IMG/VR virus record: IMGVR_UViG_3300035698_005342
Coordinates: 1-29,661 of that record
Source of the DNA: a virus
Reading direction: 5' to 3' (one strand)
DNA: 29,661 nt
Below, one piece after another: positions 2,982-20,702 of this stretch. Position 1 is the stretch's first letter. Each line of letters opens with the position of its first letter. A model generated the notes under the pieces. It saw only the letters and a list, made by a program, of their open reading frames with translations, was not told the origin of the DNA and made no database searches. Position numbers and translations under genes: made by a program.

Positions 2982-3211
2982 TGAAACTTGTAGACAAGAT
3001 TAATGGATATGGCGTTGTAGCACTAAGATTTGTAACAACGATAATTGCTGGGCTAATATTGTGGCTTGTGACAACTTTTAGTGGCAATTTAGAAACAATT
3101 TCAGATAACATGGTTTATAAGTGCGATTACAGTGAAGACAAGGAAGTGTTAGTTAGACTGCTTGAAAAATTTGATAGTAGGGTAACGTATTTAGAGAGAG
3201 CAAGAAAATAG
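2981..3211 (+). CDS. Small single-pass membrane protein
   Basis: The protein has 76 residues. A hydrophobic segment at about residues 17-33 (FVTTIIAGLILWLVTTF) predicts one membrane helix, preceded by a short basic N-terminus (K2, K6, R16) and followed by a charged helical tail of about 40 residues. Size and layout would fit a holin-like or Rz-like accessory protein, but it could equally be a small virion membrane-interacting protein. No lysis enzyme is visible beside it, so lysis is only one option. It starts on the stop codon of the previous gene. Confidence 0.55.
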   Translation: MKLVDKINGYGVVALRFVTTIIAGLILWLVTTFSGNLETISDNMVYKCDYSEDKEVLVRLLEKFDSRVTYLERARK

Positions 3212-3278
3212 TCCCCAGCCTCGTGCCGTGCCCACACGTGAACGAATATTCTTAGACTCTGTTCGTTTTAGCTGGGGA
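3212..3278 (+). ncRNA. Putative three-way-junction RNA element
   Basis: TCCCCAGC (3212-3219) pairs with GCTGGGGA (3271-3278), closing an 8-bp GC-rich stem. Inside are two further hairpins: CGTG 3222-3225 with CACG 3235-3238, and AACGAA 3241-3246 with TTCGTT 3262-3267. This makes a compact three-way junction. It starts on the base after a stop codon and lies in a 180-base gap of an otherwise packed operon. It could be a transcript stabiliser, a processing site or a regulatory leader. No hammerhead core is present. Confidence 0.35.
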
Positions 3279-3295
3279 AAAATTCAACAAGATGA

Positions 3296-3311
3296 TGTGG
3301 TTCGCCCCACA
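3296..3311 (+). other. Small hairpin in 3212-3391 gap
   Basis: TGTGG (3296-3300) and CCACA (3307-3311) pair around TTCGCC. A second weak hairpin follows (TTGTT 3367-3371 with AACAA 3377-3381), just before and overlapping the SD sequence of the next gene, so it may modulate access to that SD. The remaining bases of the gap show nothing else apart from a 17-codon ORF (3346-3399). Confidence 0.3.
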
Positions 3312-3391
3312 CATGATATACAAGATAGACATACAATCTCTTAGCATGGCGACAGCGGCTCGAAGGTTGTTCACGCAACAAGGAGGATACG

Positions 3392-4033
3392 ATAAGTAGT
3401 GTTGTTATACGCAGTGCTTGTGGAAATAGATATCCCGCACTCGTAACATCTGATGGAAAGCTAAAGGTAGATACAGAGCTTACAGTAAGCGGTATAACTA
3501 TAGATAATGTTGCATCATTTAAGCATGCAAATGGAAATATAGATTATGGACTCGTAGATACACAGAGACACGTTCAGGTAGATGTTCTTACGGCTCCAGC
3601 GATAAGCGTTGATGGTTCTACTATTAATGTAGGTCATCCAGTAGCAATATCTGGTGTTATGGGCGGGTATGAGCTGATGAATGATATTACGCTAGATGCA
3701 AGTCCAACTGCAGATACATCAAGCTCGTTCTTTGTAGGTGATAAGGACAAGGTGACGTTTATGAATAAAATCAACGTTACCAACGCAGGTGCTGGCCCAT
3801 ATGCAGATTTCAGCGTAGAGGTATCTCCAGATGATACTAATTGGGTTGGATTCAGAGATATTATGGTGAGTGGAACCTCTGTATCTGGAATTGCATATGG
3901 TGCAGATTATTCTGATACCTGTACTATGCCAATTGACTATACTGCGCAATATCTAAGAACTACGTTTGCCGGTGTTAATACCGATGTAAGCAATACGGTC
4001 GAGATTGATTCTTGGCTAACTTGGAAAAATTAG
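3392..4033 (+). CDS. Virion beta-type protein with apparent ATA start
   Basis: From the first in-frame ATG (3659) this would be 124 residues, but the same frame is open back to 3329 and reads like a real N-terminus. It includes 'CGNRYPALVTSDGKLKVDTE', a pattern typical of phage structural proteins and echoed in the gene at 4869 (K-I-P-V-D-T-E-I-S-V-S-G). No ATG, GTG or TTG occurs in frame before 3659. A perfect AAGGAGG (3380-3386) stands 5 bases before an ATA codon at 3392, so I place the start there and predict 213 residues. Alternatives are a +1 frameshift out of the 17-codon ORF 3346-3399, or a base error in the contig. The second half is a beta domain rich in Asp, Thr and Ser. Its function is probably head, neck or fibre decoration. 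Confidence 0.6.
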   Translation: MSSVVIRSACGNRYPALVTSDGKLKVDTELTVSGITIDNVASFKHANGNIDYGLVDTQRHVQVDVLTAPAISVDGSTINVGHPVAISGVMGGYELMNDITLDASPTADTSSSFFVGDKDKVTFMNKINVTNAGAGPYADFSVEVSPDDTNWVGFRDIMVSGTSVSGIAYGADYSDTCTMPIDYTAQYLRTTFAGVNTDVSNTVEIDSWLTWKN

Positions 4034-4091: not shown

Positions 4092-4547
4092 ATGGGCAAA
4101 TTGGAATCACTGGAATCTGAATTAAAAAAAGAACAAGCAAATGAACTGTCTATTATGGGAGATATTTCAGAATGTGAAACTTTGATAAAAGAGAGATTTC
4201 GTGCAACAAGTGACATACAAAAGTTGCAAGATAGAATTGCGGCAGTACAGTTAAACAATGAACGTCTATCTCTTTCTCTGGACAAACTTAATAGTAGGCT
4301 AAGCGATGCAATCGAAAGTATTGGAAACAATACTGTAGAAGATTTAGAAAAAAAACTTAATGATGAATTCGCTGAAAGTGACAAATTAAAGAAGCAAGTT
4401 GATAATATCGAGAGAAAGTCTGCTGAGAGAGTACGTGAAGATGCTATGATTGGAAGTGTAAGAGAAAAAATTCTTAAGCAGAAAAAGCTGAACGAAACGT
4501 TATTAAAGCGTAAGGAGCTTGCAGCTAAAAGGTTAGCAGGAGAATAA
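4092..4547 (+). CDS. Coiled-coil protein
   Basis: The product has 151 residues and is almost wholly charged and helical (Glu, Lys, Leu, Asn, Ser), with heptad-like spacing of Leu/Ile from about residue 5 to 140. It therefore probably forms one long coiled coil. There are no cysteines, no membrane segment and no recognisable catalytic motif. AGGAGG (4080-4085) gives a good start. Such rods in late operons act as scaffolds, fibre stalks or assembly chaperones; which one applies here cannot be told from the sequence. Confidence 0.55.
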   Translation: MGKLESLESELKKEQANELSIMGDISECETLIKERFRATSDIQKLQDRIAAVQLNNERLSLSLDKLNSRLSDAIESIGNNTVEDLEKKLNDEFAESDKLKKQVDNIERKSAERVREDAMIGSVREKILKQKKLNETLLKRKELAAKRLAGE

Positions 4548-4548
4548 A

Positions 4549-4869
4549 ATGTCAACAATAACACCAGATATTACTCGTAAAATATACACTGTAGTTGTTG
4601 CGAGTGGAAGTGGAAGTCAGGCATTGCCTACTGGAATGGCAAATGAAATAGTGCAGATTTTAGTCATTCCACCAGTCCAAACAACAACTTATCATGTCTA
4701 TATAAGAGATGGGCTAGATGGAGTCGAAGTGTTTAGACGTGAGGATGATTTACTTGGAACGTATAATGAAATTTTAACTCCTTGTCTACCAGTATTTGGA
4801 AACAATACATTTCACATCTCAAACGCCTCTGCAGATGGCAATTTTAAATTAAGGGTGGTATATAAATAA
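4549..4869 (+). CDS. Hypothetical beta-type virion protein
   Basis: A 106-residue protein, rich in Thr, Val, Ile and Gly and probably a small beta sandwich. The segment 'LPTGMANEIVQILVIPPVQT' followed by aromatic strands and a C-terminal 'FKLRVVYK' suggests a complete compact domain. No family was recognised. It begins one base after the previous stop and its own stop overlaps the next ATG (TAATG), so it is translated together with its neighbours in the decoration/fibre block. Confidence 0.5.
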   Translation: MSTITPDITRKIYTVVVASGSGSQALPTGMANEIVQILVIPPVQTTTYHVYIRDGLDGVEVFRREDDLLGTYNEILTPCLPVFGNNTFHISNASADGNFKLRVVYK

Positions 4870-5171
4870 TGTCTGAACGTGGAGTGAACAGAGTAGGAAA
4901 CTATATATGGGACTTAATAGGCCAAACATGGGTCAAGCAAGAAACACCAGCTCAAGTAAGTATTAGTGGTGTTACTCCCGTAGGTGGCAAAATACCCGTA
5001 GATACTGAGATTAGTGTTAGTGGAGATGTGATAGTAGAGAGAGTTCGTGTAGCCACTGCTCCTCTTACCGAAGTTTATGCTAGTGGAACATTTCCAGTAA
5101 CAGACAATTCTGGTTCTCTCACAATTGACGATGGTGGGGGTAGCCCTCTCTGCTACTACTATATATTTTAA
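4869..5171 (+). CDS. Gly/Ser/Thr-rich virion protein, possibly frameshifted
   Basis: A 100-residue open frame. The region 'VGNYIWDLIGQTWVKQETPA' is followed by short beta repeats of the 'VSISG..IPVDTEISVSG' kind, then 'VTDNSGSLTIDDGG', a motif common in phage structural proteins. The frame ends 31 bases before the next gene, just after a run of five G (5136-5140). Shifting +1 at that run would continue for about 20 sensible codons to a TAA at 5200-5202 that overlaps the next ATG, the same stop/start coupling used by neighbouring genes. The visible end may therefore be the result of a frameshift. Function is unknown; a neck or fibre decoration is likely. Confidence 0.5.
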   Translation: MSERGVNRVGNYIWDLIGQTWVKQETPAQVSISGVTPVGGKIPVDTEISVSGDVIVERVRVATAPLTEVYASGTFPVTDNSGSLTIDDGGGSPLCYYYIF

Positions 5172-7383: not shown

Positions 7384-7413
7384 ATGAAACGTAAAACACG
7401 GAGGGCACAGTGA
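7384..7413 (+). CDS. Nine-codon leader ORF
   Basis: ATG at 7384 opens a nine-residue basic peptide (MKRKTRRAQ) ending in a TGA that overlaps the GTG start of the big glycosyltransferase (GTGA). The SD of that gene (GGAGGG, 7400-7405) lies inside this mini-ORF. It could couple or tune translation of the first cassette gene; because the predicted transcript start is only about 7 bases upstream, it may be poorly translated or a chance ORF. Confidence 0.3.
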   Translation: MKRKTRRAQ

Positions 7414-10400
7414 AACCACGAATACTCATAGTCAGCGATTCCCCATTATTGCATACTGGAATGGGCGTTGCACATTACCAGATTGCAGGACGTCTTTACA
7501 ACATGGGTAAGTATGAAATTGCATCATTTGGTTGGTTCTCGCATACGGCAGAATCACGTGGCATGAAATGGGAGTTGCCATGGAAGCAATACACAACAAG
7601 CAATCATAGCAAACCATATGGACACCCTGAAAATTACCCTAAAGACCCTGCTTGGGGAACAAGCCCTGCAACAAAGATTATAAACGAATTTCAGCCAAAT
7701 GTAGTTATACTTATAGCAGACCATTGGATGGGCGACTACTGGTATGATATGCCAGAAAGAGATAAGTTCAAGCTTATACATGAATTCCCAATAGATGGAG
7801 CGCCAGTTCCTTCTGACTGGGTAAAAAACATCAAGCGAGCAGACCTTCCTATTGTGATGACTAGATTTGCAGAAAAAGCCATACACGATAGAGACCCATA
7901 TTGTACGCTCGAAGTTAATCCTAGGGGTCTTGATGTTGGCGTGTTTACTCCTCAGCATTTTAGTAGACCAAAGGACTTAATTCGCAAACAGTTTATGCCA
8001 GAGGCTGTGGGACGTTTTGTAGTAGGAGTTTTTGATAGATACCAAGATAGAAAGCAGATTGGAAGGGCAGTAGAGGGATTTGCTAAGTTCATGAAGAGTG
8101 GTCGACATGACAATTGCGACCTTTATCTGCATATGGACTTCAATGACTCTGCTAGTATTCAACAAGGAAAGACTCTCGTTGGAAGAGATGGAATCCTGAA
8201 GCGTTATAACATAGATGGAAAAGTTCTTTTTAAGAAAGGAATGACAGTAGAGCGTGGTGTTGATGTGAGTGAGCTAGCTGCGCTATATAACTGTTGTGAT
8301 GTTAAGCTCTCGGCATCACAAGGTGAAGGATTTGGACTGACAACTACCGAGGCAATGGCATGTGGAGTTCCTTGCGTAGCAACCAACTATACATCATTTC
8401 CTGAGTTCTTTGCTGATGGAAGAGGACTTCTTGCTGACGTAAAGACAACTATTACTGGAATGTATAATGTAGAGCGTGCGCTTGTCGATACTGAACATAT
8501 ATCTGAACTGTTGGAGAAGTTGTATCGTTCGCCCCAATTACGTCTACAAATTGGGAGAAAAGCTGCAGAGTGGGCGCAAACTCTTGATTGGAATTCAAAC
8601 ATTCAAAACTGGGACAATTACATACAACGTGTTTTAAAGGGTACACAATATAGAATAATAGAGAAAAGAAGAGATAAGAAGCCTGAACAGATAGAGAAAA
8701 ACGTCAACATTCAAGGTGCCGTATACGAAAATACAGGTTTTTCTATAGTTACAAGAAATTTAGCACTTGCTCTAGATAGACAGGGTGTAGATGTTAGCGT
8801 AGAGCCAAGAGTTCCAGAGCTTGGTAAGACGTTTAATGTTGAGCCCAAACTGTCAGAGCTTGTAAATAAGGGCAAAAATAAAGTTTTTGAGATTATCAAT
8901 CACATGGGAGATGAACAGGTTAAGCGTCTTGCTGAAAGCGATGCTCTATACAGAATAGCGTATTTTCCATGGGAACTGTCAAACATAAAAAACTCATGGG
9001 TTGATGCTCTCAACAGAGATGCGGATGCAGTATGGTGTAACTCTAAGTTCACTGCAGATATATACAAGAACGCTGGAGTGCAAGAAGATAAGATAGCTGT
9101 AATACCTAATGGCGTGTGCTTACCACGACTAACAGAAGAAGAAATAAAGGAAGTTAAGCGTGACGAAAGATATACCTTCTTGATGGTTGGCAATCTTGGA
9201 GACATACGAAAGAACACTAAGACTCTTATTCAGGCATACATGAACACGTTTACGTCTGATGATGACGTGAAACTCGTGCTAAAGTCTCAACCAGGTCACT
9301 TAAATAGCGACCCAACGTCTAATATAGAGTTTTTATCGCGTGGCTTAAAGAATCCACCTGCAGTAGACGTTATACACGCAAATTTAAGCGACAGAGAGCT
9401 TGCAGAGCTGTTCTACAAGTCTGACTGCTATGTAACAACGTCTCACGCAGAGGGGTTTTGTCAACCAATACTCGAAGCTTGTTCTAGGGGGATTCCAGTC
9501 ATAGCTCCTGCATATGGTGGGTATTTAGATTTTGCAACACAGGGAATGTTCTTTGGGGTAATGTCAAAGCTTGAAGATGCGTCAGAATCTCCTGTATACA
9601 ATACCAATGCACAATGGGTGTACGTTGATTATGGTGAGCTGTGCAAGACGATGAAAGAAGTCTTTAATGAGAAAATAAGACCCGATGGTGTAAGCTGTGT
9701 TGAATCTTTTACATGGAAAAACTCAGCAACAAAGGCTTTGTCTGAAATGGGCAAAATTGTAGAACGTTGCTCAAGTCCAAGACTTAAGGTGTTTTATAGA
9801 AACTTTGCTACTAATTTATGGAATAACGACAATAGAAGCAATCTTATAAGATATGCGCCATCTGATGTTATTTTCGTTAATGATATTAATGACGCTGATT
9901 TGCAAATTGTAGACATAACGCGCTTGAGTGACAGAAACAACATAAAGCACAAGAACTATATAGCGTTGTTCCATTGTTTTGGAGAATGGTCAGAGGAAAA
10001 ACATGAAGACTATCTTGACATCTTCAAGAACGCAGTAATGGTATACTCTCATCTCGACTTAAGCGAGTTTGGAGATAAGATAAATTATACAAGAGGGCCA
10101 TGGGGCGTAGATGAAGATATTTTCTATCGCTCTTCTGGATATGGTAAACAGTTTATGATAGTTACGACTGGTACAATAGCTGAAACTGAAGGAATATCAG
10201 AATGTGTCGCAGCGTGCGATGCTCTAGGCGGAAGATTAATGCATATAGGCAGAAATCTTGGATACAAAAATAAAAGCTACGAAAATGCAGTCAATCTAAC
10301 GCAAACACAGATGCAGACAATGTACAATTCTAGCTTTTTCGTTAATGGCATGCGTCGTGTCGAAGGGTTTGAAAAGCCAGTCATTGAAGGTGCGCTGTGT

Positions 10401-10637
10401 GGTGCAAGACCAATATGCTTCGATACTCCACTGTTTAGACATTGGTATAAAGACATACCAGTGTATGTAGAAGAAGCTGAGTTTAATGTTACTGCAAGCA
10501 ATATCGTAGATAGATTAAGAGAGAAATACAGACCCATAACAGATGATGAGATTAGTTATCTCAAGAAAAAGTTTTCTTGGGTAAGAGTTGCGAAGAATTT
10601 CTGGGAACATGCAATGAAATGTGAGGAGAGTAAATAA
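7410..10637 (+). CDS. Triple-domain GT-B glycosyltransferase
   Basis: The protein has 1075 residues and contains three glycosyltransferase-like modules. Module 1 (about 1-415) is GT4-like, starting 'ILIVSDSPLLHTGMGV', with an E-x7-E motif at E306/E314 inside 'GEGFGLTTTEAMACG'. Module 2 (about 430-790) is also GT4-like, with 'HAEGFCQPILEACSRG' and E681/E689. Module 3 (about 795-1075) is more divergent but keeps E985/E993 in 'VEGFEKPVIEGALCGARP'. The E-x7-E pair binds the sugar-nucleotide donor in GT4 enzymes, so all three could be active and add successive sugars. The GTG start is supported by GGAGGG 4 bases upstream. It is the first gene behind the cassette promoter. There is no membrane segment, so it is probably cytoplasmic. 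Confidence 0.8.
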   Translation: MKPRILIVSDSPLLHTGMGVAHYQIAGRLYNMGKYEIASFGWFSHTAESRGMKWELPWKQYTTSNHSKPYGHPENYPKDPAWGTSPATKIINEFQPNVVILIADHWMGDYWYDMPERDKFKLIHEFPIDGAPVPSDWVKNIKRADLPIVMTRFAEKAIHDRDPYCTLEVNPRGLDVGVFTPQHFSRPKDLIRKQFMPEAVGRFVVGVFDRYQDRKQIGRAVEGFAKFMKSGRHDNCDLYLHMDFNDSASIQQGKTLVGRDGILKRYNIDGKVLFKKGMTVERGVDVSELAALYNCCDVKLSASQGEGFGLTTTEAMACGVPCVATNYTSFPEFFADGRGLLADVKTTITGMYNVERALVDTEHISELLEKLYRSPQLRLQIGRKAAEWAQTLDWNSNIQNWDNYIQRVLKGTQYRIIEKRRDKKPEQIEKNVNIQGAVYENTGFSIVTRNLALALDRQGVDVSVEPRVPELGKTFNVEPKLSELVNKGKNKVFEIINHMGDEQVKRLAESDALYRIAYFPWELSNIKNSWVDALNRDADAVWCNSKFTADIYKNAGVQEDKIAVIPNGVCLPRLTEEEIKEVKRDERYTFLMVGNLGDIRKNTKTLIQAYMNTFTSDDDVKLVLKSQPGHLNSDPTSNIEFLSRGLKNPPAVDVIHANLSDRELAELFYKSDCYVTTSHAEGFCQPILEACSRGIPVIAPAYGGYLDFATQGMFFGVMSKLEDASESPVYNTNAQWVYVDYGELCKTMKEVFNEKIRPDGVSCVESFTWKNSATKALSEMGKIVERCSSPRLKVFYRNFATNLWNNDNRSNLIRYAPSDVIFVNDINDADLQIVDITRLSDRNNIKHKNYIALFHCFGEWSEEKHEDYLDIFKNAVMVYSHLDLSEFGDKINYTRGPWGVDEDIFYRSSGYGKQFMIVTTGTIAETEGISECVAACDALGGRLMHIGRNLGYKNKSYENAVNLTQTQMQTMYNSSFFVNGMRRVEGFEKPVIEGALCGARPICFDTPLFRHWYKDIPVYVEEAEFNVTASNIVDRLREKYRPITDDEISYLKKKFSWVRVAKNFWEHAMKCEESK

Positions 10638-11698
10638 TGGGCAATTTAACTACATGGGCGTCAGACAAAAGCTTTGCGTTTCTTTCTCCATATAATACGC
10701 CTAGAGGAGGAAAAAACTTTGAGATAATTAATGGAATAACTGGAGTTCCATATACGTTCAAAGAAGAAGGCGCTGATTATTACTGGTATCATGATATTAA
10801 AAATCTCCCTCATGGAGAGCTTGTTGAGATATTCAATAAATATGACTATTGGATATATCCTGTTTTTCCAGAATACTTTGACATGCTGATTAGCATAAGA
10901 GATGAGTATAAAGGTAAGGTCATAGGTGTGACTGACATACAGACTCATGTACTAAGTTATTGGCCATTAAAAGATGTAGCTCTATTCGTTCAGGCGATAA
11001 ACTGTTACGACGCTGTGATGTCAACCAACGCAGATGAGGTTGAAACGTTTCGAGGGTGTCTAAAGGACAAGAATAAAATAGCATACACTGGTTGGTCGAT
11101 GTATCCAGAGAAGATACACAGCGACTATTATAAGACCAAGAACGAGAGAGACAAAAATCTAATAAGTGTTGGGATATCAAATCCTGGTGACTTCAATAGA
11201 GACCTAATGACGAACTTAACAGCGTATAACAGGTTGAAAGAGAAGAATCCAGACATTAAAGGCTTTATGTATTATGTCACTCCTAATAAAATTGTTGGGT
11301 TGAAGAAGGTAATTAACTCGATGGGTGTACGTGACTTTTCGCTCATAACAGAGCTTCCATATAAACGTGCGCTTGAGTATCTGGCAAAGTCATATATCGC
11401 CATACATCTTTATACATTTAAAGTTGTTGGTAGGTTGGCTCAAGATTGTGCTGCGCTTGGGATACCAATGGTTGGAACTATAGCAAATCTGCCAAATAGA
11501 GTATGCTTTACTAAGTGTAGCGTTATGGATTATGACATAAATACATCTGTTGAGATTGCAGACAGGCTTCTCAACGACGATAGTTTCTGGATGGATGTAT
11601 CTGAGAATGCAAAAGATAGAGCGTATAAGTTTTATGGGCTAGATGCTACAAGAGAGAGAATTTTTAAGCTGCTTACAGATTGTGGAATCATATCATGA
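10637..11698 (+). CDS. GT-B-like glycosyltransferase, motif-poor
   Basis: The protein has 353 residues. The N-terminal half carries unusual aromatic-rich strands ('YDYWIYPVFPEYFDMLISI'). The C-terminal half resembles the donor-binding domain of GT4 enzymes, with 'LITELPYKRALEYLAKSYIA' followed by 'DCAALGIPMVGT', the place where an E-x7-E motif normally sits. The first glutamate is not recognisable (the segment reads K-V-V-G-R-L-A-Q-D), so it may use a different mechanism or act as a partner of the other transferases. It begins on the stop codon of the triple-domain enzyme and ends overlapping the next gene by ATGA, so it is part of one operon. Confidence 0.65.
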   Translation: MGNLTTWASDKSFAFLSPYNTPRGGKNFEIINGITGVPYTFKEEGADYYWYHDIKNLPHGELVEIFNKYDYWIYPVFPEYFDMLISIRDEYKGKVIGVTDIQTHVLSYWPLKDVALFVQAINCYDAVMSTNADEVETFRGCLKDKNKIAYTGWSMYPEKIHSDYYKTKNERDKNLISVGISNPGDFNRDLMTNLTAYNRLKEKNPDIKGFMYYVTPNKIVGLKKVINSMGVRDFSLITELPYKRALEYLAKSYIAIHLYTFKVVGRLAQDCAALGIPMVGTIANLPNRVCFTKCSVMDYDINTSVEIADRLLNDDSFWMDVSENAKDRAYKFYGLDATRERIFKLLTDCGIIS

Positions 11699-12729
11699 AT
11701 AGTGTGCTATTGCGTGGCGAGGTTGGAGATAATCAGTCTTGTGGTATTGTAAATATTGGATTAACTGTAGGATTTGAAGCAAACTTTGTTGAAGTATCTG
11801 TTGACCCTAAGTCAATGTATGCGTCAGCGCCTAAATTTGTGCTTGAAAGAGTGCATCGAAAGCTAGACATAGATACGTTGATAGACCATGGACTTCCACA
11901 TCAGATGAATGGTTTAGGAAAGAATAGACCATGGAGAAGAGTTGCTCTTAACTTTTGGGATTCAGACTTATTCACAAAAGAGGCAGCAGACTGCTTGAAT
12001 GAGTTTGCTGACCACGTGATAGTACATAGCGAATTTACTAAAAAAGCCGCACTTGACGCTGGTGTAGAAAAGCATATAGCAGTTGGTGCTGCAGGTATAT
12101 TCAAGGAAAACTATAAGTTTCCAGACAGAAGAAATAGAGACAAGTTTAGATTCGTATTTACTGGCGTAGCGCAGGGGCGCAAGGGTACGCAAGAGGCAAT
12201 TTCAGCATTTGAGGAAGTATTGGCAGATAAGGACGATGTTGAGCTAATAGTAAAAAGCAACTCTTGGGGTAAGGTGGATGAGTACACAGTTAAAGCAAAG
12301 AACGTTATACGCATATATGAAGAATTTCCTCGTCAGACCTTTATTGATTTCATGGCTAGTTGTGACTGTTTCGTGTGTCCAACTAAAGGCGACTCGTTTA
12401 TGTTTCCAGGTCTTGAGGCTATGGCTTGTGGTCTGCCACTTATCATTACCAACTTTGGTGGACCAACCCAATACTGTAATGATGACACTGGGTATCCTAT
12501 TAAGTACTCATTGGTTGATTGTGGTTACCTGGCTGGTCACCAAGCTGAACCAGATTTTGCTCATTTAGCAGAAACAATACTGCACGTATATAATAACAGG
12601 GAAGAAGCTTACGCTAAAGGCGACTATGGCTGGCAGTGGGGTCAAATGCATTGGGATTGGAGAGACGATACGAAACGTTTAATTAACCAGTTGGAGGTCA
12701 CCGATGAGCAGATTATTAGCAGGAGATGA
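11695..12729 (+). CDS. GT4-like glycosyltransferase
   Basis: I place the start at 11695, where ATG overlaps the previous TGA (ATGA), rather than at an earlier in-frame ATG at 11680; this gives 344 residues. It shows typical GT4 features: 'HVIVHSEFTKKAAL' in the N-terminal domain, 'FRFVFTGVAQGRKGTQEAI' at the start of the C-terminal domain, and 'GDSFMFPGLEAMACGLPLII', where the first glutamate of E-x7-E is replaced by Asp. It probably transfers a sugar from a nucleotide donor in the cytoplasm. The last 26 bases overlap the following methyltransferase gene. Confidence 0.75.
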   Translation: MNSVLLRGEVGDNQSCGIVNIGLTVGFEANFVEVSVDPKSMYASAPKFVLERVHRKLDIDTLIDHGLPHQMNGLGKNRPWRRVALNFWDSDLFTKEAADCLNEFADHVIVHSEFTKKAALDAGVEKHIAVGAAGIFKENYKFPDRRNRDKFRFVFTGVAQGRKGTQEAISAFEEVLADKDDVELIVKSNSWGKVDEYTVKAKNVIRIYEEFPRQTFIDFMASCDCFVCPTKGDSFMFPGLEAMACGLPLIITNFGGPTQYCNDDTGYPIKYSLVDCGYLAGHQAEPDFAHLAETILHVYNNREEAYAKGDYGWQWGQMHWDWRDDTKRLINQLEVTDEQIISRR

Positions 12730-13291
12730 TGGAACGGAATTCAATTACGACGCTAGTGGAAGAATTAAACTTGCATTTGGAACGGGTCATATCGACATGC
12801 ATAAACAAGGATACATCAATGTTGATATACGCTCCTTTCCTCATATTGACGTACAGTGTGATTTAAGCAAGAAACTGCCATTAAAAGATGACTATGCTGA
12901 CGAGATATTGGCACATTCGTTGCTTGAACACTTTCCAATGGGCGACTATGACAATATAGCAAGACCATATGCAAATACAATAAGAATTCTCAAAGAATGG
13001 ATTAGAGTTCTCAAGCCAGAAGGGGTATTGATATTAAAGGTTCCAAACATAAAAGGTCTGGCGAGTTGTTACTTAAACAACAAAATTGAGATATTTGAGT
13101 TTTTTAATTATCTATATGGTGGTCAAGATTATCCTGAAAATACACACTTGGCTGGGTTTGACACAAAAACTATGCAATTCTGTCTGCACATAGCCGGGTT
13201 TTCACATATAGACTTCAAGCATGCGCATAATGATGATGGAAATTTTGATGAACTTTCAGATTGGGAAATGAGGGTGGTGGCTGAAAAATGA
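12704..13291 (+). CDS. SAM-dependent methyltransferase (type 11-like)
   Basis: A 195-residue class I methyltransferase. It has 'KLAFGTGHIDM' (motif I, a little altered from the usual GxGxG), 'YINVDIRSFPHIDVQCDLSK' (motif II region with the acidic SAM-ribose contact), 'ADEILAHSLLEHF' and 'EWIRVLKPEGVLILKVPN' (post-motif strand), followed by a C-terminal beta strand. This is the layout of small Methyltransf_11-type enzymes that modify sugars or lipids in surface-glycan clusters. GGAGG lies just upstream of the ATG. It differs from the other three methyltransferases of the cassette and could act on a different position of the glycan. Confidence 0.75.
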   Translation: MSRLLAGDDGTEFNYDASGRIKLAFGTGHIDMHKQGYINVDIRSFPHIDVQCDLSKKLPLKDDYADEILAHSLLEHFPMGDYDNIARPYANTIRILKEWIRVLKPEGVLILKVPNIKGLASCYLNNKIEIFEFFNYLYGGQDYPENTHLAGFDTKTMQFCLHIAGFSHIDFKHAHNDDGNFDELSDWEMRVVAEK

Positions 13292-13812
13292 GACCTGCAT
13301 TAAATAGGGCAAGAGACATACTCAGAGATAAGGTTACAAATGAATTTAGTGACAACGTTATTGGAGCTGAAATAGGAGTTTTAAGAGGTGAAAATGCTAG
13401 AGAGATTCTTAGAGAATGGAGTCAAGTATCGCATCTCTATTTAATGGAAATCAAACCTATGGATAGCAAAAGCTCTATGATTGCTGTTGAAAATTTACGT
13501 GAATGGCAAAAGAGAACTGCATGGATAATTGGAGATTCTTCTGTGACAGGACTGAATTTTAATAACAATTATTTTGATTTCGTATACATAGATGGTGGTC
13601 ATACACACGACCCTGTGTCTGCTGACATAAAAACATATTGGGGAAAAGTAAAGTCTGGTGGAGTGTTGTGTGGACATGATTACAATGTTGAGTGGGAGGA
13701 CCCACGAGAAGGAGTTGTTAAGGCTGTCGATGAATTTGTTGCAAGATACAATTTGTATCTATGGACAAAAACTGATGGAAGTTCAAGCGATTGGGTGGTA
13801 GTGAAACCATGA
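13288..13812 (+). CDS. SAM-dependent methyltransferase (Mtf_24-like), copy 1
   Basis: A 174-residue protein, the first of three paralogues that all begin M-R-P. It shows 'IGAEIGVLRGENAREIL' (SAM-binding loop), 'LYLMEI' (motif II) and 'FDFVYIDGGHTHDPVSADI' with D102, then 'GGVLCGHDY'. This is the compact Methyltransf_24/CmcI-like pattern, whose members methylate hydroxyl groups of sugars and antibiotics and often need a metal ion held by Asp/His residues such as those in 'DGGH' and 'GHD'. It starts on the previous stop (ATGA) and ends overlapping the next copy. Confidence 0.75.
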   Translation: MRPALNRARDILRDKVTNEFSDNVIGAEIGVLRGENAREILREWSQVSHLYLMEIKPMDSKSSMIAVENLREWQKRTAWIIGDSSVTGLNFNNNYFDFVYIDGGHTHDPVSADIKTYWGKVKSGGVLCGHDYNVEWEDPREGVVKAVDEFVARYNLYLWTKTDGSSSDWVVVKP

Positions 13813-14354
13813 GACCCTGCTTTGTAGAATTTCAAAGAAGCAAATATGCAAATATTGTTGGAGCTGAAATTGGCGTGCATAGAGGTATTCACGCAATGGA
13901 TATAGTACAAAATTTGCCAAATCTTAAGAAGCTGTACTTGGTTGACCCTTACGTTATTGGTGGAGCATTTGATGGCGATAGAAAGAAAGAAAAAGAAGAA
14001 GCGCGTACTAAGCTCAATGAATTTGCAGATAAAAGACAATGGTTGTATGAAACATCTGAAGATGCCTCTAGAACTTTTGATGATAACTACTTTGATTTTG
14101 TTTATATAGATGGAGACCATTCATATGATGCTGTTTTACTTGACTTACGCTTGTGGTGGAGTAAAATTAAACATAATGGCATGATAGCTGGTCACGATTT
14201 TGACATTAAACACCACCCAGGAGTTCATAGAGCTGTATTGGATTTTGTTAATGGAACGAACTGTACTTTAAATATTCATTGTTATTTTCCACGTCCACAC
14301 AAGAAGCAGTCTACGAGTAGCGATTGGTGGATTTTTAAAGATAGCGAGGCGTGA
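13809..14354 (+). CDS. SAM-dependent methyltransferase (Mtf_24-like), copy 2
   Basis: I choose ATG 13809, overlapping the previous TGA, because it gives the same M-R-P beginning as the two paralogues; an ATG at 13791 would add six unrelated residues. The protein has 181 residues. It carries 'VGAEIGVHRGIHAMDIV', 'LYLVDPY' and 'FDFVYIDGDHSYDAVLLDL' with D101, then 'GMIAGHDFD'. A Lys/Glu-rich insertion lies around residues 57-70. It is probably a sugar O-methyltransferase. It arose by duplication of copy 1 or a common ancestor, and the adjacency suggests two methyl groups on the same glycan or on different sugars. Confidence 0.75.
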   Translation: MRPCFVEFQRSKYANIVGAEIGVHRGIHAMDIVQNLPNLKKLYLVDPYVIGGAFDGDRKKEKEEARTKLNEFADKRQWLYETSEDASRTFDDNYFDFVYIDGDHSYDAVLLDLRLWWSKIKHNGMIAGHDFDIKHHPGVHRAVLDFVNGTNCTLNIHCYFPRPHKKQSTSSDWWIFKDSEA

Positions 14355-14986
14355 TGTTGCGTGCCATATTATTCGACATAGATGGCGTTCTTGTTGACGC
14401 AGATAGGTTGCATTTTGATTGTTTTGCACGAGCATTATCAACTAAAGGCATACATCAATCGTGGGAAGAACATAATAAGTTCTACAAGGGAATGTCAACG
14501 CGCACAAGGCTTTCTCTAATTGGTGGCATGTGTGGATTGACGCAGAAAGAACAAGACAAGTTGTGGGAGTTAAAGCAAGAGTATTCAAATACTACTTTTG
14601 ATAAAATTACACCTAATAAAGAAAAAATAGACATGCTTTCAACTCTACGCAAGAAATATAAGCTTGTTGCGTGTTCAAATGCGAACAGAGACAACGCTAA
14701 ACACATGCTTGTTGCATCTGGGTGTATATCATTTCTTGAATTCTTTTTGAGCAGTAGCGATGTAGAGCATGACAAGCCCGACCCTGAGATATACACAACG
14801 GCACTAAACAGACTTGGTTTTTCACCAAATGAATGTTTGGTTGTAGAGGATTCTGCATTAGGTATGGAAGCTGCAAATAATGCTGGATGTCATTTGTGCG
14901 CAGTAGAAGAATATTCTGATGTAACATTGAAACGCTTAAACGATACAATACGCTCCATAGAGAGAAACAATGATAATGAGAAATGA
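14354..14986 (+). CDS. HAD-family phosphatase/phosphomutase-like hydrolase
   Basis: The protein has 210 residues from ATG 14354 (GTG at 14351 is an alternative; GAGG upstream suits either). It has all HAD motifs: 'FDIDGVLVD' with nucleophile D8 and D10, the motif II segment 'ACSNAN', K141 in 'HDKPDPEIY', and E165-D166 in 'VVEDSALGMEAANNAGC'. With the cap helices after motif I this is the beta-phosphoglucomutase-like subclass. In this cassette it could remove a phosphate from a sugar phosphate (the step GmhB performs in heptose pathways) or isomerise one. GmhB itself belongs to a different HAD subclass, so that equivalence is only a guess. Confidence 0.8.
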   Translation: MLRAILFDIDGVLVDADRLHFDCFARALSTKGIHQSWEEHNKFYKGMSTRTRLSLIGGMCGLTQKEQDKLWELKQEYSNTTFDKITPNKEKIDMLSTLRKKYKLVACSNANRDNAKHMLVASGCISFLEFFLSSSDVEHDKPDPEIYTTALNRLGFSPNECLVVEDSALGMEAANNAGCHLCAVEEYSDVTLKRLNDTIRSIERNNDNEK

Positions 14987-14992
14987 TAGATT

Positions 14993-15796
14993 ATGATAGG
15001 AGTAGTATTTGTTAATTACACTGATGAGCAATATATTGCAGGTCGCCAGGCAATGTCACTGCGCTGTCTTAAATCGTTAATCAAAAGTACTGAAAATAAT
15101 GATTGCAGAATTGTAGTAGTAGACAATGGTGGAAAAGGTGAAACTGGTCTTCTTAGAGAAGAATTTTGCAACCTACTTAATGACAAGAAAATTCATGCGT
15201 ATATTTCATTTGATGGCAATAGGGGTCTTGGGTATGCAAGAAATCTTGGCAAGACAATCCTAGACGAAGAATGTGCTTATGTCAAGATATACCCTCCTGA
15301 TTATTATGTCTTTACAGATAATGACTTTTTCTATAGACAAGACTGGCTTGATGTTGCCGTTAAGGTGTATGAAAGATTTAAGTGTCTATGCCCAGTTCTT
15401 TCATTCTATAATAATTCGTCAGGAAGTCATATTCCAAGAGGAATATTTACACATTCAACATCCAATGCTTATCAGATTGGATTGAGTGGTTCAGCTCCTG
15501 GTGGATGTTGGATGATGGATGACAATGCAACGAAGATATTTGAAAAACTTCCAACAAATAAACGTTGTGGCAACGAAGATTGGCACGTAATATACGCGAT
15601 GCAAGAGAAAAAGAAAAAGTTCTTAGTTATGGAAGGGCTTGTGAGGCATGTTGGTCTAGGGTATTCTATGTGGCTTGGTGAACTCCCAACATACAAAGCA
15701 CACAAACGACACATAGACGAAGTTAGCGACAAGTACGGTCTGATTTTAGATGCTGATGGTAATGATGTTGAAGAAACTACAAAAAATATAAAGTAA
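14993..15796 (+). CDS. GT2-like glycosyltransferase, copy 1
   Basis: A 267-residue GT-A fold enzyme. It starts 'MIGVVFVNYTDEQYIAGRQA', with 'RIVVVDNGG' (nucleotide-binding strand) and 'GNRGLGYARN' (GT2 donor loop), a metal-binding D-x-D equivalent 'FTDNDFFYRQDW' (D109-N-D111), and 'GGCWMMDD' later, with a final 'NEDWHVIYAMQEKKKKFLVM' containing the acidic E-D pair that usually acts as catalytic base. No membrane segment is present. It is the first of three paralogues (16354, 17687). It probably transfers a sugar to a growing glycan in the cytoplasm. Confidence 0.75.
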   Translation: MIGVVFVNYTDEQYIAGRQAMSLRCLKSLIKSTENNDCRIVVVDNGGKGETGLLREEFCNLLNDKKIHAYISFDGNRGLGYARNLGKTILDEECAYVKIYPPDYYVFTDNDFFYRQDWLDVAVKVYERFKCLCPVLSFYNNSSGSHIPRGIFTHSTSNAYQIGLSGSAPGGCWMMDDNATKIFEKLPTNKRCGNEDWHVIYAMQEKKKKFLVMEGLVRHVGLGYSMWLGELPTYKAHKRHIDEVSDKYGLILDADGNDVEETTKNIK

Positions 15797-15811
15797 CTAC
15801 CAGGAGACGCA

Positions 15812-16357
15812 ATGCCACTAATTCTGAGAAATGATGATGTTACGATGTCGTCAAATTTGGATGATATTCTAAAAATGTATGCAATTATTAGAGAAAAACT
15901 TCCAAATGCTGAGATACGGTCGTCAGTTACTGTATTTTCAAAAGGAAATCAGGGACATGTTTACCCCATAGAGCCAATGAAGCATATGCCATTATCGTAT
16001 CTTTATGATGTTGATAGAGCGTGGGTGAATTATCCTAATTTAGGTGATAAAATAGTGTCGCATGGGTTATTTCACATAGACCACACAAAGCTTAGTTATT
16101 CCGCAATGGAGATGTCTATTGTTTGTAGTTGTCGCTATCTACATACAAGCGCATTTACTCCTCCTTATGGATACGAAAATGATATGATGAATACAATTTG
16201 CAAGTTGCACAATATTAAACTTGAACATTCTTACCCTTTAGATGGATGGAAGAGTATAGAATTTAATAAATTTGATGAAAAGCACGAGAACTGGTATTTT
16301 CATTCTTGGAGATTTACTCCTAAGACGTTTGAAAAAGCATTGGAGGGTAACATATGA
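15812..16357 (+). CDS. Polysaccharide-deacetylase-like (NodB/DUF2334-type) protein
   Basis: A 181-residue protein with the short motifs of the CE4/NodB fold: 'LRNDDV' near the N-terminus (D8-D9, catalytic and metal Asp), 'SHGLFHIDH' (H84 and H88 as the metal-binding His pair, H91) and 'FTPPYG' (115-120, equivalent of the RxPY motif). Members hydrolyse N- or O-acetyl groups from sugars or act on related substrates. It is smaller than usual (often 200-260), so it could be a minimal or inactive version. An AGGAG sequence precedes the ATG. Placed between two GT2 genes, it most likely trims acetyl groups of the cassette's product or of the host polysaccharide. Confidence 0.6.
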   Translation: MPLILRNDDVTMSSNLDDILKMYAIIREKLPNAEIRSSVTVFSKGNQGHVYPIEPMKHMPLSYLYDVDRAWVNYPNLGDKIVSHGLFHIDHTKLSYSAMEMSIVCSCRYLHTSAFTPPYGYENDMMNTICKLHNIKLEHSYPLDGWKSIEFNKFDEKHENWYFHSWRFTPKTFEKALEGNI

Positions 16358-17139
16358 TAGGGGCTGTAATTACAGATTACGCAAGACCAGACCTTGCGAT
16401 AAGAAGCATAAACTCTTTCCTAAAAACAACTAAAGATGTTAATGTTAGATTAGTTGTTGTTGATTTGGGTAAAATAAAAGATATCCCAAGAAACAGACCA
16501 TTGAATGACTTTAATATTGAGGCAAACATGGAGCGCAATACAAAACGTTATGCAGATTTAGTCGCTAAAGGAGATATTCATTGCGTTATTTCGATTGATA
16601 GAAATATGGGAAAAAGTTATTGTTGCAATATTGGCGCGACGATGTTGAGAGAAGAGTGCAAATGTGAAGGTATGTCAGCGCCTGATTATTATTTATTCGC
16701 AGATAATGATATGCTCTATAGAGATGGCTGGTTAAAGCTTGGACTTGAAATGTATAATAAATATAGAGATACTTTTCCAATAATGTCGTTTCACAATAAT
16801 GGAGCACCAGACCACCAGCCAATTAGATACATTAATGATAAAGCTGTAGCGCCATTTAGACTATCCGCCAACCCATCAACTCCTGGGTTTGTGTATCTTA
16901 TGGACGAGGAGTTTTTTAAACAAATTGGTAAGTTTCCAACAAAAAAACAGATGGGCGATGATGACTACCACGTAATACACGTAGTTCAAGGTTTGAAAAA
17001 AGAGTTTTTGTTATTAGAAGGAGTTGCTGAACATATTGGATTTGGTCGCTCTGCGTGGCGGCTTGAAAAATCAAGTTGGGATTGTCACGATAGATACAAT
17101 AAAGAACTAAAAAAACAGTATGGACCAATAGAAGAATGA
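16354..17139 (+). CDS. GT2-like glycosyltransferase, copy 2
   Basis: A 261-residue paralogue of the GT2 enzyme at 14993, with the same order of features: 'MIGAVITDYARPDLAIRSI', 'VRLVVVDLG', a donor loop 'DRNMGKSYCCNIGATML', D117-N-D119 in 'FADNDMLYRDGW', and a C-terminal 'GDDDYHVIHVVQGLKKEFLL' acidic region. Its start overlaps the stop of the deacetylase-like gene (ATGA) and its stop overlaps the next methyltransferase, so translation is coupled. It probably adds one sugar; acceptor and donor cannot be read from the sequence. Confidence 0.75.
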   Translation: MIGAVITDYARPDLAIRSINSFLKTTKDVNVRLVVVDLGKIKDIPRNRPLNDFNIEANMERNTKRYADLVAKGDIHCVISIDRNMGKSYCCNIGATMLREECKCEGMSAPDYYLFADNDMLYRDGWLKLGLEMYNKYRDTFPIMSFHNNGAPDHQPIRYINDKAVAPFRLSANPSTPGFVYLMDEEFFKQIGKFPTKKQMGDDDYHVIHVVQGLKKEFLLLEGVAEHIGFGRSAWRLEKSSWDCHDRYNKELKKQYGPIEE

Positions 17140-17699
17140 GACCATCTTTAGAGATAGCTAAAAAGTATTTTAATGGTAAAAATGTTAAGTGTGCGGAAAT
17201 TGGTGTTGAAAAGGGAAACAATGCTGTTGATATTCTCAAAAACTTTCCAAACATTGAGACAATCTTATTGGTGGATAACTACAAAGGTAGAATGGACAAA
17301 TACAAGAAGACAAGTCTTGAAAAAATAAATGCGCTCAATCCTGGAGACACGATTAAGTGGTATTATCTCGATTCAAGCGAAGCAAGCAAGCTCGTAGAAG
17401 ATAGCTCATTAGACTTTGTATACATAGATGACGACCACTCTGAAGTAGGGGCGTACAGAAGCATGACTTCATGGTGGAAAAAGTTGAAAAATGGTGGAAT
17501 GTTATGTGGGCACGACTACATGATAGGTGGTAGAGCTCAAGGTGTTATAGCTGCAGTTGAAAAATTTAGAGTTGCGTTTGATGTACCAGTTAGTATACAT
17601 TCAGAGTACCACAGCAAGGATGATGGTCGTACAAGTTGGAGTGAAAGAATGGTAACACCGTTTTTGAGCGATTGGTGGATATATAAATGGACAAAATAG
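17136..17699 (+). CDS. SAM-dependent methyltransferase (Mtf_24-like), copy 3
   Basis: A 187-residue protein, the third M-R-P-beginning paralogue. It has 'CAEIGVEKGNNAVDIL' (SAM loop), 'ILLVDNYKG' (motif II), 'LDFVYIDDDHSEVGAYRSM' with D98 and 'GGMLCGHDYM'. Conserved Asp and His residues of the family are kept, so it should be active. It sits between two GT2 genes, repeating the methyltransferase-GT2 order found upstream, and ends inside the next gene (13-base overlap). Confidence 0.75.
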   Translation: MRPSLEIAKKYFNGKNVKCAEIGVEKGNNAVDILKNFPNIETILLVDNYKGRMDKYKKTSLEKINALNPGDTIKWYYLDSSEASKLVEDSSLDFVYIDDDHSEVGAYRSMTSWWKKLKNGGMLCGHDYMIGGRAQGVIAAVEKFRVAFDVPVSIHSEYHSKDDGRTSWSERMVTPFLSDWWIYKWTK

Positions 17700-18454
17700 G
17701 TGCAATACTCGTAAATTATGCTCGCCCTGATATGGGAATGAGAAGCATTAAATCGTTCTTAAGCACAACAAAGAATGACGATGTTAAGCTTGTTGTCGTA
17801 GATACAGGTACTCAGCCTAGTGATGAGTCTGAGCGTAGAACAAAAGAACTTATAGACCTTGTAGATAGTGGCGATATATTCTCTGTCGTATCGTTTGGAG
17901 ACAACCTTGGTAAGGGATATGCACTGAACATTGGAACTCAAATATTGAAAGAAAAATGTAAGTACCACAACATTGAAGAGCCAGACTATTACGTGCATCT
18001 CGACAATGATGTCATATTTAGAGACAATTGGCTGACTATAGCTATCAATCTTTTCAGAAAGTATAGCTCTGTGTACCCAATATTGTCTTTATACAGGGGT
18101 GGCTCTAACGCTCACAAGATACAGAAAGAGCTTTCAGATTCTGATGCTAAAGGATATCGTTTTAGCATAGTAGATTCATGTGAAGGTATGTGCTGGATAA
18201 TGCCACGATGGGCAGACGAATTAGTTGAAAAATCGCCTACTGAGATACCTATAAGTGGAATAGACTGGTTCGTTATCAATAAGCTCAAGAAGGATGGATA
18301 TACATTCTTAACGCTTGAAGGGCTAATCAAGCATATAGGTTTTAAACATTCCACACATAGAGGCGAGCTACAGAGCTGGTATAGACAATTGGAGTACGAT
18401 ACTGAAATAGAAAAATTATATGGGAAAATTGAGGAGGCACGCGATGAATGTTAG
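17687..18454 (+). CDS. GT2-like glycosyltransferase, copy 3
   Basis: A 255-residue GT-A enzyme, closest in layout to the copy at 16354. It has 'IGAILVNYARPDMGMRSI', 'VKLVVVDTG', 'GDNLGKGYALNIGTQIL', the D-x-D equivalent 'HLDNDVIFRDNW' (D106-N-D108) and a C-terminal 'IPISGIDWFVINKLKKDGY' with Asp as likely base. It overlaps both neighbours, as do most genes of the cassette. Confidence 0.75.
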   Translation: MDKIGAILVNYARPDMGMRSIKSFLSTTKNDDVKLVVVDTGTQPSDESERRTKELIDLVDSGDIFSVVSFGDNLGKGYALNIGTQILKEKCKYHNIEEPDYYVHLDNDVIFRDNWLTIAINLFRKYSSVYPILSLYRGGSNAHKIQKELSDSDAKGYRFSIVDSCEGMCWIMPRWADELVEKSPTEIPISGIDWFVINKLKKDGYTFLTLEGLIKHIGFKHSTHRGELQSWYRQLEYDTEIEKLYGKIEEARDEC

Positions 18455-18728
18455 GGCAGTTTTTATAGCAATTAGACCCGATGCGAAAGAGATAATGGCT
18501 CCATTCTATAGAGAACTAGCAATGAAACATGGAGATGTTATGGTGTTCAACAGTGGTCCAGTTTGTCAGGAAATAAAAGACAGAAACGTTGCCATAACAA
18601 ATGATACAGAAAAGGATGCTGATTTAATTAAAAGTTTTGGCTGTGGTTCTGTGTGTCTAACAAAGTCAACAGATTTAAGTATGGGTATTTCTGCAATAGA
18701 ACGTGAAGCTCAGAAGGGTGGTGCGTAA
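18444..18728 (+). CDS. Hypothetical 94-residue protein
   Basis: I place the start at ATG 18444 because GAGGAGG stands 6 bases upstream; an ATG at 18420 would read out of frame through the end of the GT2 gene. The product has 94 residues with an alternating beta/alpha pattern ('VRAVFIAIRPDAKEIMAPFY', 'GDVMVFNSG', 'GCGSVCLTKS'). It looks like a small Rossmann-type or truncated domain. It is not recognised. Being inside the cassette, it may be an accessory of the sugar-activation step. The stop overlaps the next ATG (TAATG). Confidence 0.5.
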   Translation: MNVRAVFIAIRPDAKEIMAPFYRELAMKHGDVMVFNSGPVCQEIKDRNVAITNDTEKDADLIKSFGCGSVCLTKSTDLSMGISAIEREAQKGGA

Positions 18729-19060
18729 TGCCAAGAGATTTTGAATGTCCACTATGTAAGGCTGAAAAGATAACAGAATGGTTCTATGACAGTTCATTGT
18801 TTTGGATTGCAAATTGTGCAACGTGTCAGGTTCCAATGGTTGTGTTGAAAGAACACAGAGCTGATGTAGAACGTTGGATTATAGATGAGATGATTCAAGT
18901 ATCTAAATCAATATTTGATATTGATAAATTTGATATAGATTTTGAGATGCGACAGATTAAAGGTCATTTTCATTTTCATCTACGCCCTAAGAAGATTGAG
19001 AAGGTGAATGATGAAGAAGAACGAGAAGAAGAAGAAAACGCTAAAAAGGTTGATGACTAA
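18728..19060 (+). CDS. HIT-like protein with zinc ribbon
   Basis: A 110-residue protein. It has a zinc-ribbon type pair C7-x2-C10 and C30-x2-C33, then 'VPMVVLKEH' (35-43), and a histidine triad H80-F-H82-F-H84-L at the site where HIT enzymes keep their catalytic H-phi-H-phi-H motif. HIT proteins hydrolyse or transfer nucleotide-phosphate bonds, including nucleotidyl groups on sugar phosphates. The protein is shorter than usual HIT proteins and ends in a highly acidic tail. Next to a nucleotidyltransferase gene it could act on a nucleotide sugar. Its family was judged from motifs only. Confidence 0.55.
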   Translation: MPRDFECPLCKAEKITEWFYDSSLFWIANCATCQVPMVVLKEHRADVERWIIDEMIQVSKSIFDIDKFDIDFEMRQIKGHFHFHLRPKKIEKVNDEEEREEEENAKKVDD

Positions 19061-19662
19061 TGCGCATCTTAGTTCTTGCAGGAGGAATAGGAACCCGATT
19101 AAAACCGCTAACTACATTTGTTCCCAAAGTAATGATGAGTGTTCACGGTCATCCATTTTTATACTATCTGGTAAAGGCATATCAAGGGCACGACCTTGTA
19201 TTGTCCGTGAATTACATGAAGGAGAGCGTAAAAAATTGGTGCCGACTTACCAAGACTTATTTAGAATTTGTTGAAGAGCCTGAGTTTATGGGGACTGGTG
19301 GAGCTATACGCATAGCAGAACCATTCATGTATGGTAGAAAGAAGTTCGCAGTTGTTAATGGCGATACATATATTGAGGAAGATATGAATAAAATCTTTAA
19401 GTCGCATAATTCTAATAAAGATATTGCGACAGTGGTGTACGCAAAAGATATGCTAGATAATAAAATGCGCAATTCAGGCGTTTATGTGTTTAGTCAAAAA
19501 ATATTTGATTATTTGCGAAAACCCAAAGTTTTTACTTTAGAGGATAAACTTGACTCGATTCCACACAAAATATATGAGAGCAAGAAGAAATATCTTGACA
19601 TTGGCACGTACAAAGGGCTCACATACGCAAAAACACATCTATTCAATGAACGAAAACGTTAG
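19060..19662 (+). CDS. Sugar-phosphate nucleotidyltransferase (HddC-like)
   Basis: The protein has 200 residues. The N-terminal 'LVLAGGIGTRLKPLT' is the nucleotide-binding loop of sugar nucleotidyltransferases, followed by 'VPKVMMSVHGHPFLYYLV', 'FMGTGGAIRIAEP' and 'FAVVNGDTYIEED' (about residues 92-105, the Asp for metal). This is the order in GDP-mannose pyrophosphorylase-like enzymes, including HddC, which makes GDP-D-glycero-D-manno-heptose. It is a little shorter than typical members (about 230). The next gene encodes an HddA-like kinase, which strengthens a heptose-activation reading. Substrate specificity (hexose or heptose, GTP, CTP or UTP) cannot be proven by eye. Confidence 0.75.
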   Translation: MRILVLAGGIGTRLKPLTTFVPKVMMSVHGHPFLYYLVKAYQGHDLVLSVNYMKESVKNWCRLTKTYLEFVEEPEFMGTGGAIRIAEPFMYGRKKFAVVNGDTYIEEDMNKIFKSHNSNKDIATVVYAKDMLDNKMRNSGVYVFSQKIFDYLRKPKVFTLEDKLDSIPHKIYESKKKYLDIGTYKGLTYAKTHLFNERKR

Positions 19663-19670
19663 GAAACGCA

Positions 19671-20702
19671 ATGAAAAGACTAATACGAAGCATGGCTCCA
19701 CTGAGATTAGGCCTTGGCGGTGGTTCGTCTGATTTAGCTCCCTTTGTAAGGCGTTATGGCGGAGAAGTATTAAATGCGACTATAAATAAATGCGTACACG
19801 CAACCTTGGTTCCAAACGATAGCGACCAAATATTGTTACGCTCAGAAGATTATGGAATAACGAGAGAATACGATAGCAGTAAAGCTCTCCCATACGACGA
19901 TGAGTTGGACTTGGTATGTGCTGTAATAAACAGAGTGAGAGGAACGAAAGAGTATAATGTTCCAAAAAGTGGATTTGATATCTACTTGCGTAGCGATGCC
20001 CCACCTGGTGCAGGACTTGGAACGTCATCTACTGTAGTTGTGGCAATACTTGGACTATTCAATGAGTGGTGCAACATACACATGGGGAACTACCAACTTG
20101 CGCATCTTGCTTGGGAGATTGAACGCGTTGATATGAAGATGGCTGGTGGCAAGCAAGACCAGTATAGCGCAGTATTTGGTGGGTTTAACTTGATGTATTT
20201 TCGACAAAACGATGAAGTATTAATCGTTCCACTTAAGGTTCCACGTTCAACGCTGCTTGAGTTGCAGAATAATTTGCTCTTAGTGTACTCTGGTAAGACT
20301 CATAAATCTGGGGAGATAATAATGTCTCAGACACCTAACTCACTTGAGAAATTCAACTGGATACTACACATAAAGAACATAGCTCAAGCAATGGTTGAAG
20401 ATTTACTAGCTAAAGACTTAGAGAACTTTGGAGAGCTATTGTCTATGGAGTGGCTGTATAAGAAACGTTTATCAAGCAAGACGAGTAATGAATATCTTGA
20501 AAAGCTTGCAAATGCAGCAATGGAGGCAGGTTCTATAGGTCTAAAGATTACGGGTGCTGGCGGTGGTGGTATGTTTCTCATTTACTGCCCTTGGAGGAAG
20601 AGAACACATATAGCAAATACGATGAAGAAACAAGGATGTAAGGTAATAGATTATTCATTTCGTGTTAAAGGACTGCAAACATGGAGCGTGAAATATGGGT
20701 GA
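19671..20702 (+). CDS. GHMP sugar kinase (HddA-like)
   Basis: The protein has 343 residues, normal for the family. It has the three GHMP motifs: 'APLRLGLGGGSSDLAPFV' near the N-terminus, the ATP loop 'APPGAGLGTSS' (110-120) and 'ITGAGGGGMF' (293 onward). The opening 'RSMAPLRLGLGGGSSDLAPF' with a following 'GGEVLNATI' is the arrangement of D-glycero-D-manno-heptose 7-phosphate kinase (HddA), which makes heptose 1,7-bisphosphate. Fucose or other sugar kinases of the same family are possible. It lies 8 bases after the nucleotidyltransferase gene. A GAAA/AGGA sequence precedes the ATG. It is the last enzyme gene of the cassette. Confidence 0.8.
   Translation: MKRLIRSMAPLRLGLGGGSSDLAPFVRRYGGEVLNATINKCVHATLVPNDSDQILLRSEDYGITREYDSSKALPYDDELDLVCAVINRVRGTKEYNVPKSGFDIYLRSDAPPGAGLGTSSTVVVAILGLFNEWCNIHMGNYQLAHLAWEIERVDMKMAGGKQDQYSAVFGGFNLMYFRQNDEVLIVPLKVPRSTLLELQNNLLLVYSGKTHKSGEIIMSQTPNSLEKFNWILHIKNIAQAMVEDLLAKDLENFGELLSMEWLYKKRLSSKTSNEYLEKLANAAMEAGSIGLKITGAGGGGMFLIYCPWRKRTHIANTMKKQGCKVIDYSFRVKGLQTWSVKYG

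Follow-up and report, generated by a model that had tools for sequence, protein, structure and literature searches.

An ATA codon behind a strong Shine-Dalgarno sequence in a gene among phage virion genes: rare weak start or single wrong base, with a candidate junction RNA upstream

Results

Locus and Reading Frame

The analysed stretch of DNA (hereafter, the window) comprised the complete virus record IMGVR_UViG_3300035698_005342 (29,661 bases), whose sequence suggests a fragment of a tailed phage. A major head protein (capsid) gene was assigned at 1025-1975 on the basis of PHROGs. At 1.4 kb downstream of this gene, among virion genes, lies a plus-strand gene of 213 codons plus stop (3392..4033), which opens with an ATA codon (3392..3394) and is referred to below as the ATA gene. 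In agreement with the initial annotation, its reading frame was found to be open from 3329 to 4033, between an upstream in-frame stop (TAG, 3326) and the stop codon at 4031-4033, and to contain no ATG, GTG, or TTG before the ATG at 3659. Given the base composition of the locality, with a stop probability of 0.074 for each codon, 213 open codons would occur by chance with P ∼7e-8, and the open frame was therefore not attributed to chance.

The Shine-Dalgarno (SD) sequence AAGGAGG, which had been reported 5 bases before the ATA codon, was confirmed on the plus strand at 3380..3386. Its predicted anti-SD pairing energy of -11.4 kcal/mol ranked 6th among 39 analyst-chosen start sites in the window, and 0.25% of 4000 random positions showed pairing of at least this strength. 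The SD forms the end of a conserved untranslated element (3353..3386, plus strand), in which a small hairpin (GUUG..CAAC) adjoins it. A 17-codon open reading frame (ORF; 3346..3399, plus strand), reading MATAARRLFTQQGGYDK followed by TAG, was likewise confirmed to lie one frame off the ATA gene. Further upstream, a candidate three-way-junction RNA was found at 3211..3278 on the same strand.

Elsewhere in the window, about 13 kb of genes of sugar and nucleotide-sugar type (7410-20702) separate head and tail genes. The 1075-residue product of the gene at 7410 was identified as a glycosyltransferase (Pfam E = 1.3e-31, two stretches), and the remaining genes are presumably of sugar or nucleotide-sugar type, to judge from their sequences. 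At 21904, an ORF with a GTG start showed no SD-like pairing in the preceding 18 bases, and its true start may lie elsewhere.

Relatives Place the Translation Start at the ATA Codon

A search with the capsid protein yielded 11 related contigs. Two of these (L003 and L004) carried genes with the same N-terminal module as the ATA gene (SSVVIR..GNRYPALV; residues 2-36 in the window). When a profile of this module was run against 13 records, including the window, a more distant third homologue was detected in the L009 record (E = 3.4e-8). Three further profile matches (in G006, and second ones in the window and in G002) covered only the later VDTE..SG stretch and are uninformative about the start codon. 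All three profile-detected relatives have ATG at the codon corresponding to 3392 (L003 15360, L004 7040, L009 8466). The start region of the window (ATA AGT AGT GTT GTT ATA) aligned with ATG AGT AGT GTT GTT ATA in L004, ATG AGT ACA AGT ATA ATT in L003, and ATG AGT ACA GTA GTC ATT in L009. A gene start in L012 (ATG AGT AGT GTT ACA ATA), missed by the profile and matched by eye, provided a fourth relative with ATG. At the start codon, the window thus differs from its relatives by a single base.

Over the 35 codons from 3392, window and L004 differed at 5, 5, and 19 sites in codon positions 1, 2, and 3, respectively, corresponding to 13 synonymous and 8 non-synonymous codons. This pattern indicated selection on the protein from the first codons onward. 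For L003, the pattern over the same 35 codons was less clear (11, 10, and 18 differences). Taken together, these sequence comparisons support the ATA codon as the start site, and translation almost certainly begins at codon 3392.

Two other proposals for translation of this frame fared poorly against the same comparisons. Initiation at 3659 alone would use the first canonical in-frame start codon and yield a 124-residue protein, but the conserved part of the protein (3395-3502) lies wholly upstream of this position and the relatives begin at the upstream ATG, which renders this reading scarcely credible. The initial annotation had also proposed a +1 slip at the AAG-TAG that ends the 17-codon ORF. 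In prfB, a +1 frameshift site, an SD-like sequence precedes the stop codon and translation continues in the +1 frame; the arrangement here shares this geometry, with the same frame relation, a stop codon, and an SD-like sequence upstream, and it is this geometry alone that speaks for a programmed shift. The upstream ORF is, however, unconserved: its counterparts in L003 and L004 lack an ATG and are closed by TAA before the SD. Moreover, unlike a gene that depends on frameshifting, every homologue found has its own ATG at the aligned codon and needs no shift. Programmed frameshifting was consequently rejected as extremely improbable. The 17-codon ORF is probably not a gene, and its likeness across the window, L003, and L004 is due to conservation of untranslated DNA rather than of a peptide.

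Homologues were scarce outside this set. The full-length protein retrieved none from viral contigs, where the N-terminal profile returned only the contigs of L003 and L004, and the profile had no match in genome contigs. Queries with the capsid, the glycosyltransferase, and the 4549 protein added no N-terminal homologue except L009, which was brought in via the capsid; in genome contigs, the capsid query found nothing. Phage records contained one distant capsid match, no protein match for the ATA gene, and no DNA match for the region. PHROGs gave no match for the ATA gene protein.

A Shared 5′ Segment Precedes a Variable Protein

The untranslated element (3353-3386) was 88% identical to L003 and 79% to L004, as compared with 63 and 72%, respectively, for the first 35 codons. 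When viral contigs were scanned for the pattern of the element, only the contigs of L003 and L004 were recovered, and by eye it was absent from L009 and L012. Its SD-adjoining hairpin showed one compensatory change across three sequences; in these three sequences, the element with its surroundings was no more stable than shuffled controls (z = -0.57, -0.49, and 0.39).

The N-terminal 36 residues of the protein are common to relatives, and the remainder differs between phages. For the C-terminal half, a weak discoidin-like similarity was obtained (Pfam F5_F8_type_C, E = 0.0029, below the cut-off of that family), and a structure predicted from a three-row alignment had a mean pLDDT of 34.9. By inference, these properties fit a fibre-type or virion surface protein whose C-terminal part can be exchanged. 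A 5′ segment consisting of the untranslated element and 36 codons is common to the phages (genes at 3392-4033 in the window, 15360-15797 in L003, and 7040-8077 in L004). The position of the gene differs: in the window it precedes the gene at 4092, and in L003 and L004 it directly precedes a glycosyltransferase gene. Judged from sequence, the shared 5′ segment, differing remainder, and differing gene positions look like those of an exchangeable cassette.

The AUA Codon as a Weak Start or a Wrong Base

Features to be expected of a genuine AUA start were present at 3392. The SD is stronger than usual and properly spaced, and homologues have their start codon at the aligned position. Among five sites compared, predicted SD pairing was strongest in the window (-11.4 kcal/mol), relative to -9.3 in L003, -8.5 in L004, -9.1 in L012, and about -7.2 kcal/mol in L009, the last value having been measured one base off the true start. 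Against a genuine ATA stands the observation that no relative found has ATA at the aligned codon.

The window and the 11 whole related records (265 kb, in pieces overlapping by 100 bases) were scanned for an SD followed by ATA, ATT, ATC, or CTG without a nearby usual start. No second convincing gene with an SD and ATA was detected in these 265 kb. With a single convincing site in 12 records, group-wide use of ATA starts was rejected. The sole other SD-ATA match, in L070, was discarded as the antisense of a low-complexity protein. This 1649-residue protein (L070 4071-9020, minus strand) consists in its second half of a long SPSAS-type repeat; the antisense frame of the protein is open for 499 codons and gave rise to the false match.

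A simple base error, ATA for ATG, had been put forward in the initial annotation. A wrong consensus base at 3394, with the gene starting at an ordinary ATG, would account for the one-base difference from the ATG that every detected relative carries, as well as for the uniqueness of the SD-ATA arrangement in 265 kb. In addition, a possible indel at about 5135-5145, 1.7 kb downstream and near a G run at about 5139-5143, hints at possible errors in the record. Nothing speaks directly against such an error, but assembled consensus sequences seldom contain single-base errors, and we regard a wrong base as somewhat unlikely, if the most serious competitor of a genuine AUA start.

The possible indel concerns a gene at 4869-5171, common to L003 and L007, in which an early stop follows a G-rich stretch (GATGGTGGGGGTAGCC) near 5135-5145. 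Beyond this stop, the next frame continues uninterrupted until its own stop codon, which shares bases with the start codon (ATG) of the gene at 5202 (TAATG); junctions of this type are common in the window. The early stop may reflect an indel near the G run, either real or in the consensus.

Alternatively, the A may be real but recent, and the gene now effectively silent through loss of its start codon. Retention of ATG by the relatives is consistent with such a loss. An intact frame over 213 codons and the retained strong SD argue against it, as do published AUA starts behind strong SDs that, according to the available part of PMC13009471, still yield product. We consider a silent gene improbable. 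The reading that we prefer, with a probability of roughly 0.6 and from sequence considerations, is that the AUA at 3392 is real and used as a weak start, helped by the strong SD.

A Candidate Three-Way-Junction RNA Upstream

The RNA candidate at 3211-3278 consists of a closing stem P1 (3212-3219/3271-3278), a stem P2 (3222-3225/3235-3238) with the loop GTGCCC at 3228-3233, and a variable stem P3 within about 3240-3266. The same anatomy, with P2 capped by NGUGCCC, was observed in L002, L007, L003, L004, L009, and L012. All seven sequences folded better than shuffles (z -3.5 to -5.2). The 7-base NGUGCCC loop was present in the minimum-energy fold of six of them; in the window, the best fold paired part of the motif in a shifted hairpin.

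When the window and 11 complete related records were scanned with a descriptor, 6 sites were obtained, versus 0-1 in each of 10 shuffled sets, although the descriptor was drawn from the same examples and the scan is no independent test. The seventh site, in L003, has a 5-pair P1 and fell below the descriptor threshold. MAFFT misaligned P3. In a hand alignment, which leans to the structure and contains related, non-independent sequences, P1 was paired in 35/35 cells and P2 in 34/35; for each stem, 2 of 5040 rearrangements of the 3′ arms did equally well.

One copy occurred in each of the seven records, out of 12, that extend into the region; the other five end between 2 and about 930 bases past the capsid match. 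The RNA is positioned after the stop of one gene and upstream of the start of the next. This downstream gene is the ATA gene in the window and its homologue in L009, of the 4092 type in L002 and L007, a glycosyltransferase gene in L003 and L004, and a small membrane-protein-like gene in L012. Also in L012, inspection by eye revealed a hairpin after the capsid gene (about 8985-9030), with AGTGCC in its loop and a run of T behind it, which is perhaps a terminator.

Covariance models were built from two subgroups, R1 (window, L002, L007) and R2 (L009, L012, L004, L003). With default filters, R1 recovered only its own three members at E ≤ 10, and R2 found only its own four. With filters off, the window site ranked first in the window for R2 (E = 3.4), and R1 gave partial matches at the sites of the L009 record, L003, and L004 (E 1.9-3.4), which scored below other chance matches. 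Because the subgroups, weakly tied by these models, miss each other at useful E-values, membership of all seven in one RNA family is likely rather than proven.

Viral contigs were also searched by pattern for the CCCCAG subtype, which gave 20 stretches, two of them already known (L002, and L043, which is the contig of L007); the other 18, with at most 1 pair in P2, were dismissed as chance matches or repeats. Searches against Rfam 15 gave no match at gathering score for the window, no match up to E = 5 for 3150-3480, and, for five stretches from the window and relatives, eight weak matches (E 3.6-8.2), all below gathering score. The candidate resembles Rfam 15 structured RNAs in being a compact stem-junction with a constant loop, and differs from them in that no family reaches gathering score. 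A literature search, in sources available in part, returned nothing describing a three-way-junction RNA of this kind, and 3211-3278 may represent an undescribed phage RNA. Pairing of its loop with the downstream SD, assessed by eye, was inconsistent across members. We suggest a cis-acting intercistronic element on which a phage or host factor might act by binding or processing.

Discussion

The initial observation of an ATA codon behind a strong SD was true, and its explanation is ordinary to mildly unusual: the codon is a rare weak start, or else a single base is wrong. If it is a weak start, the virus would carry ATA through one presumed G-to-A change from the ATG of its relatives. The initiator tRNA would read AUA weakly, the 7-base SD AAGGAGG at good spacing would offset this weakness in part, and the protein would be made at a reduced level owing to a presumably lower translation rate.

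Gene finders limited to ATG, GTG, and TTG would miss such a gene or cut it at 3659, with loss of the conserved module. A real ATA would also exemplify, in a phage, a weakened start codon offset by a strong SD. The upstream RNA is the more interesting by-product of this analysis. If confirmed, it would be an element with covariation, retained in one copy per genome in a phage group that is otherwise little studied. Tentatively, and with a good deal of doubt, an undescribed GUGCCC-loop junction RNA, present once per genome downstream of the capsid gene in this group, might set expression of neighbouring genes through binding or processing by a factor, and might act here together with a deliberately weak AUA.

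The published AUA starts considered here are cellular genes in the available parts of the sources (PMC13009471, PMC13068326, PMC12864459). According to the accessible text of PMC13009471, infC, ccpN, and citZ of S. aureus start at AUA, and for infC and ccpN, among other sites, an extended SD is described. In reporters, the same text gives about 10% of AUG expression for non-canonical S. aureus sites in poor medium, and up to 30% for ccpN in rich medium. The ATA gene resembles infC and ccpN in having AUA behind an extended SD, with low expression to be expected. It differs in that these two, as far as that text describes them, are cellular genes whose AUA starts serve as regulatory choices and are supported by ribosome profiling, that of ccpN being conserved, whereas the phage case is unshared by relatives and known here from sequence alone.

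A second comparison is offered by natural start-codon changes. In Listeria rsbW, a natural ATG-to-ATA change reduces expression without abolishing it (PMC13068326, available part), and in rpoS of E. coli O104:H4 the same change lowers protein up to five-fold, again without abolishing expression (PMC12864459, available part). The latter text also quotes Hecht et al. (2017) for ATA activity of at most 1% of that of ATG in E. coli. As proposed for the ATA gene, one G-to-A change in the start codon lowers but does not abolish expression in both cases (available parts of PMC13068326 and PMC12864459); by difference, rsbW and rpoS are, in these same sources, bacterial regulators with measured effects.
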